A DNA stretch of 64,000 nt from assembly GCF_013033965.1 (NCBI RefSeq), contig NZ_WQFE01000004.1, forward strand, positions 248,001 through 312,000. The letters are read 5' to 3'. Below the pieces are notes generated by a model. It did not search any database, was not told the origin of the DNA, and saw nothing but the letters and a program-made list of their open reading frames with translations. Shown piece after piece: positions 45,843 to 64,000 of this stretch. Position numbers and translations under genes: made by a program. Within the stretch, counting starts at the first letter, position 1, and each line of letters opens with the position of its first letter. Source of the stretch: Ruegeria atlantica. GTDB lineage: Bacteria; Pseudomonadota; Alphaproteobacteria; Rhodobacterales; Rhodobacteraceae.

Positions 45843-47237
45843 TTACATGTGGATCACACGTCCGTAGGCGTCCAGCACGCTTTCGTGCATCATCTCTGAC
45901 AGCGTCGGGTGCGGGAAGACAGTATTCATAAGGTCTTCTTCCGTGGTTTCCAGCTGTCGGCCTACAACATACCCCTGAATCAATTCCGTGACTTCAGCGC
46001 CAATCATATGCGCACCCAAAAGCTCTCCGGTTTTGGCGTCGAACACTGTTTTGATCAGGCCTTCGGGCTCGCCGAGAGCGATAGCCTTGCCGTTGCCGAT
46101 GAACGGGAACCTGCCGACTTTTATGTCGTATCCCAGTTCCTTGGCCTTCGCCTCTGAATACCCAACGGACGCCACCTGCGGTTGGCAATAGGTACAACCG
46201 GCGATGCTTTCAGGTTTCACCGGATGGGTATGTTTGCCGGCGATCAACTCGGCGACCATGACACCCTCGTGGCTGGCCTTGTGCGCAAGCCAAGGCGCGC
46301 CGGCAATGTCACCGATCGCATAAAGGCCATCGACACCTGTACGACAGAACTCATCCGTGACGACATGTGTACGGTCGATTTTGACGCCCAAGGCCTCGAG
46401 CCCGAGGTTTTCGACATTCCCCACGATCCCCACGGCCGAGATTACGGTGTCAAAGTCGTGCTTTTCGACTTTGCCCTTAACTTCAATATGGGCTGTGACT
46501 TTACCCTTCGCGCGGTCCAGTTGTTTGACCATCGCCTTTTCCATGATGGTCATGCCTTGTTTGGTAAAGGCTTTCTTGGCCAGCGCGCTGATTTCGGCAT
46601 CTTCGACCGGTAGCACGCGGTCCATCACCTCGACCACGGTCGTGTCCGCGCCCAACGTGTTATAGAAACTGGCGAATTCGATCCCGATTGCACCAGAACC
46701 AATGACCAGCAGCTTTTTCGGCATCCGCGGCGGCTGTAGCGCGTGCTTGTATGTCCAGACCAGATTGCCGTCTGCTTCTAGTCCCGGCAGCTCCCGAGCG
46801 CGCGCGCCGGTCGCCAGCACGATGTTCTTGGCCGTCAGTTCCTCGGTACCCTTGTCGGTTTTGACAGTGACCTTGCCTTTGGCAGGGATCGTGGCCTCGC
46901 CCATCACAACGGTCACCTTGTTCTTTTTCAGCAAATGGCCAATGCCGCCTGACAGTTGCGCCGCAACCCCGCGCGAGCGTTTCACGACCGCATCCAGATC
47001 AAAACCAACTTTGTCAGCGCTCAGACCGAAATCCTTGGCGCGCTCCATAAGATGAAAAACCTCGGAGGTCCGCAGCAGCGCCTTGGTCGGGATACAGCCC
47101 CAGTTCAGGCAGATACCGCCCAAATGTTCGCGCTCAACCACAGCGGTTTTCAGGCCCAGCTGTGCGGCACGGATAGCAGCCACATATCCACCAGGACCGG
47201 CGCCAATTACGATCAGATCAAAAGATTGTGCTGCCAT
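45843..47237 (-). CDS. lpdA: Dihydrolipoyl dehydrogenase (E3)
   Basis: FAD enzyme reoxidising the lipoyl groups of 2-oxoacid dehydrogenase complexes with NAD+. The 464-aa protein has the FAD motif GAGPGGYVAAI (about residues 12-22), the redox disulfide GGICLNWGCIPTKALL (about 40-55), the NAD motif VIGSGAIGIEFASFY, the second FAD contact YAIGDIAGAPWLAHKA, and the C-terminal His-Glu pair in FPHPTLSEMMHESV. No other complex subunit is adjacent, but it carries the same upstream palindrome as pdhA at 63 kb. ATG 47237 follows GAGAGGG. Confidence 0.96.
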   Translation of the reverse strand: MAAQSFDLIVIGAGPGGYVAAIRAAQLGLKTAVVEREHLGGICLNWGCIPTKALLRTSEVFHLMERAKDFGLSADKVGFDLDAVVKRSRGVAAQLSGGIGHLLKKNKVTVVMGEATIPAKGKVTVKTDKGTEELTAKNIVLATGARARELPGLEADGNLVWTYKHALQPPRMPKKLLVIGSGAIGIEFASFYNTLGADTTVVEVMDRVLPVEDAEISALAKKAFTKQGMTIMEKAMVKQLDRAKGKVTAHIEVKGKVEKHDFDTVISAVGIVGNVENLGLEALGVKIDRTHVVTDEFCRTGVDGLYAIGDIAGAPWLAHKASHEGVMVAELIAGKHTHPVKPESIAGCTYCQPQVASVGYSEAKAKELGYDIKVGRFPFIGNGKAIALGEPEGLIKTVFDAKTGELLGAHMIGAEVTELIQGYVVGRQLETTEEDLMNTVFPHPTLSEMMHESVLDAYGRVIHM

Positions 47238-47266: not shown

Positions 47267-47290
47267 AATTAGTTTACCATTAAACTAATT
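47267..47290. promoter_or_regulatory. Perfect palindrome upstream of lpdA (putative PDH-regulon operator)
   Basis: Ten-base arms AATTAGTTTA and TAAACTAATT around CCAT. The inner 18 bp, TAGTTTA-N4-TAAACTA, are identical in the paired bases to the palindrome upstream of pdhA (63032-63049). It ends 30 bp before the lpdA start codon. Confidence 0.8.
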
Positions 47291-47453
47291 CCCTGAATGC
47301 ATCAACATATTGCTCCCGCGACAAAAGAGACGCAGGGTAAACCGGCGCGTTACGCGCTGTTTTCAGCCTATACCGCGCGTGAACCAATGGCTAGAAGATA
47401 CGCACCGGGCTTGCCCGAACATTGTGAAACCCAAGTTATTCGAAAGACTTACC

Positions 47454-62903: not shown

Positions 62904-63030
62904 TCCTCTGATCGGATTTCGTTGACAAATCCATGACGCAATTCACTCGCGTTTTGTGACCATATGGGCGTCGATTGCCCTACGCAGCGTCACATTTCCA
63001 CTCGCCAGAGAGCAGGAAATGCTTTATGAA

Positions 63031-63050
63031 ATAGTTTAACGCTAAACTAT
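63031..63050. promoter_or_regulatory. Perfect palindrome upstream of pdhA (putative PDH-regulon operator)
   Basis: ATAGTTTA-ACGC-TAAACTAT; the inner TAGTTTA-N4-TAAACTA matches the site before lpdA. It ends 26 bp before the pdhA start codon. A TTGACA (62922-62927) further upstream could be a -35 box, but no matching -10 was clear. Confidence 0.8.
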
Positions 63051-63076: not shown

Positions 63077-64000
63077 ATGGCTGCGCGAAAAACCACAAAG
63101 AAACCAAATGTTTCTGCGGAAGAACTTACCGAATATTACCGTGAGATGTTGCTGATCCGCCGATTCGAGGAAAAGGCCGGTCAACTGTATGGCATGGGTC
63201 TGATTGGCGGTTTCTGCCACCTCTACATCGGTCAGGAGGCTGTTGTTGTCGGCCTCGAAGCTGCTGCCGAAGAGGGTGACAAGCGTATTACCTCCTACCG
63301 CGACCACGGTCACATGCTGGCCTGTGGCATGGATCCGGGTGGCGTGATGGCCGAACTGACCGGACGCATCGGAGGCCTTTCCAAGGGCAAGGGCGGCTCG
63401 ATGCACATGTTCTCGAAAGAAAAGCATTTCTATGGCGGCCACGGCATCGTTGGCGCACAGGTGCCGCTGGGTGCCGGTCTGGCATTTGCCGACAAGTACA
63501 AGGGCAACGGACGCGTGACATTCACCTATTTCGGTGACGGCGCCGCGAACCAGGGCCAGGTCTATGAAACCTTCAACATGGCCGCCCTGTGGGATTTGCC
63601 GGTGGTGTTCGTGATCGAGAACAACCAATACGCCATGGGCACCGCGCAGGCGCGCTCGACATCGACCAAGGATATCTACCACCGCGGCGAAGCGTTCGGC
63701 ATCCCGGGTGAGATCGTCAACGGCATGGATGTGCTGGCGGTCAAGGCCGCTGGCGAAAAGGCTGTCGCGCACTGTCGCGCGGGCAAAGGCCCCTACATCC
63801 TTGAGATCAAGACCTACCGCTACCGCGGCCACTCGATGTCCGACCCGGCCAAATACCGCACCCGCGAAGAGGTTCAGAAGGTTCGCGAACAAAGCGACCC
63901 GATCGAACATGTGCGCGAGCTGCTGCTGACCGGCAAACACGCGACCGAGGATGACCTGAAGGCGATCGACAAAGAGATCAAAGAGATCGTCAATCAAGCC
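63077..64000 (+). CDS. pdhA: Pyruvate dehydrogenase E1 component, alpha subunit (3' end missing)
   Basis: E1 alpha decarboxylates pyruvate with thiamine diphosphate. The first 308 codons are present and the frame is open at the window edge. Visible are a basic leader (MAARKTTKKPNVSAEE), IRRFEEKAGQLYGMGLIGGFCHLYIGQEA, the phosphorylation-loop region YRDHGHMLACG, the substrate loop GGSMHMFS, the ThDP/Mg motif GDGAANQGQVYETFNMAALW with VIENNQYAMGT, and RYRGHSMSDPAKYRT. GGGGGAG lies 7 nt before ATG 63077. pdhB and an E2 gene would be expected next. Confidence 0.96.
   Translation, partial: MAARKTTKKPNVSAEELTEYYREMLLIRRFEEKAGQLYGMGLIGGFCHLYIGQEAVVVGLEAAAEEGDKRITSYRDHGHMLACGMDPGGVMAELTGRIGGLSKGKGGSMHMFSKEKHFYGGHGIVGAQVPLGAGLAFADKYKGNGRVTFTYFGDGAANQGQVYETFNMAALWDLPVVFVIENNQYAMGTAQARSTSTKDIYHRGEAFGIPGEIVNGMDVLAVKAAGEKAVAHCRAGKGPYILEIKTYRYRGHSMSDPAKYRTREEVQKVREQSDPIEHVRELLLTGKHATEDDLKAIDKEIKEIVNQA

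Follow-up and report, generated by a model that had tools for sequence, protein, structure and literature searches.

The 64-kb stretch of DNA analysed here (the window) carries lpdA, encoding dihydrolipoyl dehydrogenase (E3), and pdhA, encoding pyruvate dehydrogenase E1 alpha, and each gene is preceded by the perfect palindrome TAGTTTA-N4-TAAACTA (Table 1). Rereading of the letters places both palindromes where an earlier note on this DNA had put them, 32 bp upstream of the lpdA ATG (minus strand) and 27 bp upstream of that of pdhA (63077). The gene identities proposed in that note hold as well, since both products score above the cut-offs of their NCBIfam models; the pdhA reading frame runs past the end of the window (64000).

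Table 1. Positions of the genes, palindromes and predicted promoter elements discussed in the text.
Feature	Position	Strand	Details
lpdA, dihydrolipoyl dehydrogenase (E3)	45843..47237	-	454-aa part against TIGR01350 lipoamide_DH: 556 bits, cut-off 408.8
Operator-like site before lpdA	47267..47290	.	AATTAGTTTA-CCAT-TAAACTAATT; 10-bp arms; core 47270-47287
Predicted -10 of lpdA (TAATGG)	47277-47282	-	17-bp gap from -35; within the palindrome
Predicted -35 of lpdA (TTGATG)	47300..47305	-	TTGA conserved in 12 lpdA upstream regions
Predicted -35 of pdhA (TCGCCA)	63002..63007	+	Aligned promoters of 58 genomes
Predicted -10 of pdhA (TATGAA)	63025..63030	+	Aligned promoters of 58 genomes; ends 1 bp before the palindrome
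Operator-like site before pdhA	63032..63049	.	TAGTTTA-ACGC-TAAACTA
pdhA (P0004), pyruvate dehydrogenase E1 alpha	63077..64000	+	TIGR03182: 514.6 bits, cut-off 393.85
ubiG-linked MarR, candidate regulator (P0003)	G000:C4:48602-49039		146 aa; outside the window
One-mismatch copy of the site	G000:C34:423039-423056		AAGTTTAACGTTAAACTA; loci L003/L036; outside the window
Three-mismatch palindrome at the start codon of P0001	G000:C47:217041-217058		Locus L080
CceR-type site before an enolase-like gene	G000:C34:216204-216217		TGTTATCGCTAACA; locus L136; outside the window

Occurrence of the palindrome in the genome and across the family

With up to three mismatches allowed, TAGTTTA-N4-TAAACTA matches the window three times, against a mean of 0.27 in shuffled sequence, and three or more matches were reached in none of 100 shuffles. 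Two exact copies, those before lpdA and pdhA, are present in the 4.67-Mb genome, where 0.003 are expected from the base composition of the window (58% GC). A genome scan at up to two mismatches adds one copy with one mismatch and two copies with two. One of the two-mismatch copies lies upstream of maeB (malic enzyme), a third target gene that was absent from the lpdA/pdhA pair of the earlier note, and the other has no assigned gene. The one-mismatch copy is flanked by a gene for D-lactate dehydrogenase and, about 111 bp downstream, by phaB (acetoacetyl-CoA reductase), which may be an additional target in this genome. Little weight can be given to weak copies by themselves, because in this same genome the reversed control pattern outnumbers the motif, with 14 matches per strand compared with 5 when two mismatches are allowed, and 36 compared with 8 when three are.

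Among 100 Rhodobacteraceae genomes the exact site occurs 71 times, in 40 genomes, and the reversed control pattern once, in the genome of the window. All of these loci were read, and 67 of the 71 sites lie before pdhA (33), maeB (22) or lpdA (12), the other four being elsewhere (L008 in G090, L011 in G028, L024 in G032 and L042 in G033). The motif is therefore not scattered at random, and it is kept before the pdhA and lpdA genes of the family, the two points on which the earlier note had let its operator stand or fall. The pdhA upstream region was read in 90 genomes, and many of those with no exact copy still carry the site there; in the 79 that have the ubiG-linked MarR gene described below, its commonest position is 27 bp before the ATG. 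Shuffled pdhA upstream regions reached three mismatches or fewer in 20 of 2700 cases. Named genomes give the same picture: the best 80 of 580 PdhA matches, the closest of which are from Ruegeria (96–97% identity), have 0, 1, 2, 3 and 4 mismatches before pdhA in 43, 18, 15, 2 and 2 cases, i.e. at most four in 80/80 and at most three in 78/80, this set overlapping the 90 regions so that the two counts are not independent. TAGTTTA-N4-TAAACTA is an operator-like site, conserved across the family before pdhA, lpdA and maeB.

A count in 24 chosen genomes at up to one mismatch gave 21 sites in 17 genomes, and none for the control; they lie before pdhA (14, assigned by position), lpdA (3), maeB (3) and aceE (1). 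The aceE gene encodes a non-homologous, homodimeric pyruvate dehydrogenase E1, and it is preceded by the site in two genomes (loci L114 and L346). In G121 the site is exact, and the gene, which is partial, scores 782.5 bits where the model of the full-length protein asks for 859.9; in G056 the site has one mismatch, and the gene that starts 182 bp after it shares 87% identity with the aceE of G121. Since a non-homologous gene also carries it, the site tracks function rather than one gene lineage.

In the aligned upstream regions the palindrome arms are conserved letter by letter. The spacers do vary, as the earlier note had argued from the two copies in the window, but they are not free, as most of them read RYRY (ACGC, ATGC, ATAT, GCGT, etc.). 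That the same genes keep the site throughout the family lends strong support to the proposal of that note that lpdA and pdhA are joined by what would be a protein operator.

maeB is often divergent from its neighbour, which is either a conserved gene with an IRLPT...DDIPF motif or a cytidine deaminase-like gene (named by eye); such arrangements were read in loci L028, L033, L038 and L039 and in L013, L018 and L031. Given this divergence, the operator may serve two promoters.

Position of the palindrome relative to predicted promoters

When the 58 pdhA regions whose site has no more than one mismatch are aligned, a -35-like T(C/T)GC and, after a 17-bp gap, a TATRAR -10 are seen directly before the palindrome, and as this predicted -10 adjoins the palindrome, pdhA transcription is predicted to start within it. 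In 12 regions upstream of lpdA and 22 upstream of maeB, the palindrome is preceded at approximately 13–18 bp by a -35-like element, which places the predicted -10 of these genes inside the palindrome. The layouts at the three genes, in which the promoter elements are themselves predictions, suggest a repressor: a site that overlaps or abuts the predicted promoter points to repression, and the repressor that the earlier note had in mind would fit this position.

A MarR subfamily whose recognition helix covaries with the site

A scan of 240 genomes across the class, 237 of them outside the family, in which a YR centre was required, found sites in 3/237 outgroup genomes, which belong to three different families. 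Each of the three sites precedes a gene for an Acg-type FMN oxidoreductase, followed by a MarR gene; the oxidoreductase is confirmed by NCBIfam in one of these genomes and is 54–56% identical to it in the other two. In four outgroup loci (L140, L141, L178 and L180) the oxidoreductase promoter contains two TAGTTTA-type palindromes 21 bp, or two helical turns, apart.

In Rhodobacteraceae this MarR subfamily forms two branches, one encoded beside the oxidoreductase and one beside ubiG and a carbon-nitrogen hydrolase gene, and the ubiG-linked branch is the widespread one. The oxidoreductase promoters of 26 distinct genomes link the recognition helix to the site: with a GA[MI]TN helix the site (up to three mismatches) is present in 12/13 promoters, and with other recognition helices in 0/13 (Fisher p 2.7e-6, not corrected for relatedness, several of the 26 genomes sharing a genus). 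Without the three genomes that were found through their exact site (G238, G242 and G318) the count for GA[MI]TN is 9/10. These counts leave out the same-genome duplicate loci L175, L177 and L185, locus L194, where the oxidoreductase gene was not found, and some ten other paralogues of the oxidoreductase type. Where the helix of the oxidoreductase-linked MarR is PKTSMTHT-like, the Acg-type oxidoreductase gene is preceded by a different palindrome, roughly TAGTRCGA...TCGYACTA (loci L145, L149, L151, L155, L158, L161, L163 and L192). Such pairs of operator and helix amount to a natural experiment on specificity change in a MarR protein. Palindromic registers recur 10 bp apart in L149, L151 and L163.

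The ubiG-linked MarR of the genome of the window, P0003, has a MarR domain (PF12802 MarR_2, 38 bits for a cut-off of 27; PF01047, 27.2 bits for a cut-off of 24.6). Its branch has the recognition helix TRGAMTNT in 52 of the 54 loci read, some genomes being represented twice, and TRGAITNT in the other two; as both are of the GA[MI]TN type, the ubiG-linked MarR is expected to bind the palindrome of the window. P0003 is devoid of cysteine, which makes an OhrR-like thiol switch unlikely in this protein, and a cysteine is present in 4 of the 54 loci.

Co-occurrence of the ubiG-linked MarR with the pdhA site

An orthologue of P0003 (at least 56% identity) is present in 82 of the 100 Rhodobacteraceae genomes. 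Among the 90 pdhA upstream regions, the site is found at up to three mismatches in 76/79 from genomes with the ubiG-linked MarR versus 4/11 from genomes without it (p 4.7e-6); in G085 pdhA is present and the contig begins within the gene. The 79 regions comprise 31, 23, 15, 7, 2 and 1 with 0, 1, 2, 3, 4 and 5 mismatches. The four genomes with a site and no MarR gene (G033, G068, G078 and G096) are assemblies that are 74–83% complete, so the gene may lie in their missing part. When only genomes at least 90% complete are kept, a filter that drops G008, G021, G022, G028, G033, G068, G078 and G096 from the 90 regions, the pdhA site is present in 73/76 genomes with the ubiG-linked MarR versus 0/6 without it. 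In the complete genomes G002, G020 and G023 the MarR gene is present and the pdhA site is found only at four to five mismatches.

On a PdhA tree of 88 of the 91 genomes with PdhA (G028, G077 and G081 were left out), absence of the MarR gene, incomplete genomes included, needs 10 changes, six of which are forced by well-supported branches; MarR absence is thus not confined to a single clade. Well-supported branches provide two independent pairs of complete genomes for a joint loss of gene and site, and both pairs agree, which is not significant. Adding the incomplete genomes raises the number of pairs to six; the mean counts are 2.0 in agreement, 0.2 in disagreement and 3.8 without a difference.

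No linkage was found between the ubiG-linked MarR gene and its proposed targets pdhA, lpdA and maeB, and none of the 54 loci of this gene has a good site before the gene itself, the best match having four mismatches (L167 and L210, from the same genome) and the other 52 having six to eight. Computation shows where the sites lie, which genes they precede and how they covary and co-occur with the MarR gene; linkage in the outgroup, covariation of operator and helix, and co-occurrence favour the MarR half of the earlier guess of a MarR- or GntR-type protein. That the ubiG-linked MarR would be the reader of the palindrome is well supported by these comparisons.

Alternative explanations

Another conserved regulator, such as a MarR paralogue, a TetR, a GntR or another dimeric helix–turn–helix protein, could bind the site while the ubiG-linked MarR merely covaries with it. 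This is unlikely. Two points speak for it: no linkage joins the MarR gene to the targets, and the co-loss test has only six complete genomes without MarR. Outgroup linkage and helix covariation independently point to the subfamily of the ubiG-linked MarR. An alternative MarR, P0001, the start codon of which overlaps a three-mismatch palindrome, was tested and rejected, as it is not conserved across the 100 genomes (54–60% identity in six other genomes, next best 38%). The P0001 gene is near a gene that, by eye, resembles one for maleylacetoacetate isomerase.

The site might instead belong to the LacI regulator CceR (GapR, RSP_1663), reading the same half-site at two spacings, which we regard as improbable. 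In the excerpted text of a network model of R. sphaeroides, malic enzyme and PdhAB (RSP_2968, RSP_4047-4050) are assigned to RSP_1663, with a motif, [AGT]GTT-N6-8-AAC[ACT], that falls into two clusters by spacer (PMC4344238), and the excerpt of a P. denitrificans study reports that MaeB is lower in a cceR deletion (PMC11323563), so CceR may also act on maeB. The centre of the spacer is also often CG, as in LacI operators. In a search for CceR orthologues in 22 chosen genomes, CceR too was missing from five of the six complete genomes without the site (G004, G014, G029, G059 and G083, with a 38% match only); since these five lack MarR, site and CceR together, co-loss alone hardly separates the two proteins.

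Spacing and targets speak against CceR. The CceR-type N6 pattern, TGTTANCGNTAACA, has 37 matches in 24/41 genomes, for nine matches of a control pattern, whereas the palindromes of the window have N8 spacing. pdhA, lpdA and maeB are absent from all 24 CceR-type loci read (24 of the 37 matches, one per genome), and several of these sites are at zwf, eno, gap, pyk and cceR (gene names by eye). To our knowledge a spacing 2 bp longer is not expected of one LacI dimer, which counts against CceR. Among the genes that the excerpted regulon text of PMC4052901 names for GapR there is no pdh or lpd gene and none for malic enzyme. Two genomes discriminate between the two regulators: G090 has an exact pdhA site and no CceR orthologue, and G048 has CceR and neither the ubiG-linked MarR nor the site. 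More broadly, six genomes with CceR and without MarR (G047, G048, G066, G071, G085 and G094) have no exact site before any gene, versus 38/82 genomes with MarR (p 0.034). CceR, which had been considered for the TTAnCGnTAA-like core, is disfavoured by spacing, by targets and by G090 and G048, and these differences suggest that the R. sphaeroides model, in the part of it that is cited above (PMC4344238), merged two regulons under CceR. The genome of the window has a CceR-type site, TGTTATCGCTAACA, before its enolase-like gene (Table 1), and sites like it stand before a LacI gene in L118, L120, L123 and L138.

An RNA hairpin in a 5' leader is a very improbable role for the palindrome: the inverted repeat lies mostly 15–50 bp before a start codon, but the letters of the arms are themselves conserved, single substitutions are mostly one-sided, and the arms overlap the predicted -10 of lpdA and maeB. 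A copied repeat or chance, which identical arms at two places 15.7 kb apart might have suggested, has a negligible probability and is already refuted by the 0.003 exact sites expected per genome and by the 71 sites in 100 genomes, against one for the reversed control, nearly always at the same genes.

Proposed mechanism, origin and meaning

We consider it probable, on the strength of the comparisons above, that TAGTTTA-N4-TAAACTA, with its mostly RYRY spacer, is the operator of a repressor, the ubiG-linked MarR, which would control maeB, the pdhA operon and lpdA. A dimer of this protein would sit on the palindrome, where it would cover the predicted -10 (lpdA and maeB) or the predicted transcription start after the -10 (pdhA) and so keep RNA polymerase off the promoter; a small ligand, the existence of which we infer, would free the dimer from the operator. 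The physiological sense may be to gate the flux from malate through pyruvate to acetyl-CoA, which would perhaps be turned off during growth on acetate.

The two branches of the subfamily could have arisen by an early duplication, in Rhodobacteraceae, of a local MarR of the oxidoreductase gene. One copy would have been relocated to the neighbourhood of ubiG and would have retained its recognition helix while its own operator disappeared; it would also have gained operators at pdhA, lpdA, maeB and even aceE. The sister copy, which stayed with the oxidoreductase gene, would have changed both helix and operator. We hold this history to be evenly balanced between true and false; if it is true, the ubiG-linked copy would be a widespread switch of the node between pyruvate and acetyl-CoA. 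Pyruvate dehydrogenase and malic enzyme set the feed of acetyl-CoA in roseobacters and their phototrophic relatives, and this node gains a specific operator, a candidate regulator present in 82/100 genomes of the family, and a testable regulon. A MarR repressor with its regulon is a known kind of system. The ubiG-linked member, its targets and its duplication origin were not met in the open literature searched; among the matches listed there, none has a title that concerns control of pyruvate dehydrogenase by a MarR protein in Rhodobacteraceae, and among the papers listed for the letters of the half-sites none looks related from its title or the start of its abstract.

Comparison with known systems

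In enterobacteria PdhR, of the FadR subfamily of GntR proteins, is a dedicated repressor of the pyruvate dehydrogenase genes and acts at a palindrome near the promoter. The system proposed here likewise has a palindrome near the promoter of pyruvate dehydrogenase genes and a putative dedicated repressor; it differs in that the candidate is a MarR protein, that maeB is within the proposed regulon and that the regulator gene is unlinked. The palindromes differ too, as the earlier note had pointed out: the PdhR box is AATTGGT-N3-ACCAATT, against TAGTTTA-N4-TAAACTA in the window.

RamB of Paracoccus denitrificans, a member of the ScfR family, resembles the proposed regulator in acting on acetyl-CoA metabolism in a related bacterium, but the protein family differs, and the excerpted text describes RamB as an activator with a site before the glyoxylate-cycle operon that is made of two nearly identical boxes, 18 bp apart (PMC10370305). 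This two-box architecture with its 18-bp spacer led us to drop ScfR/RamB regulators as candidates. CceR/GapR is similar in being a central carbon regulator of Rhodobacteraceae with an AT-rich palindrome of GTT...AAC halves. It is set apart by its N6 spacing, compared with N8 here, by its different targets in the loci read and, in the few discriminating genomes, by where it is present.

The local repressors of the MarR family are small winged-helix proteins with palindromic operators of 16–20 bp, and the outgroup members of the subfamily conform to this type, as they lie in an operon behind such a palindrome. The ubiG-linked member departs from it, being unlinked to its proposed targets and without a good site before its own gene, and its proposed role lies in central metabolism instead of in the control of an adjacent gene.
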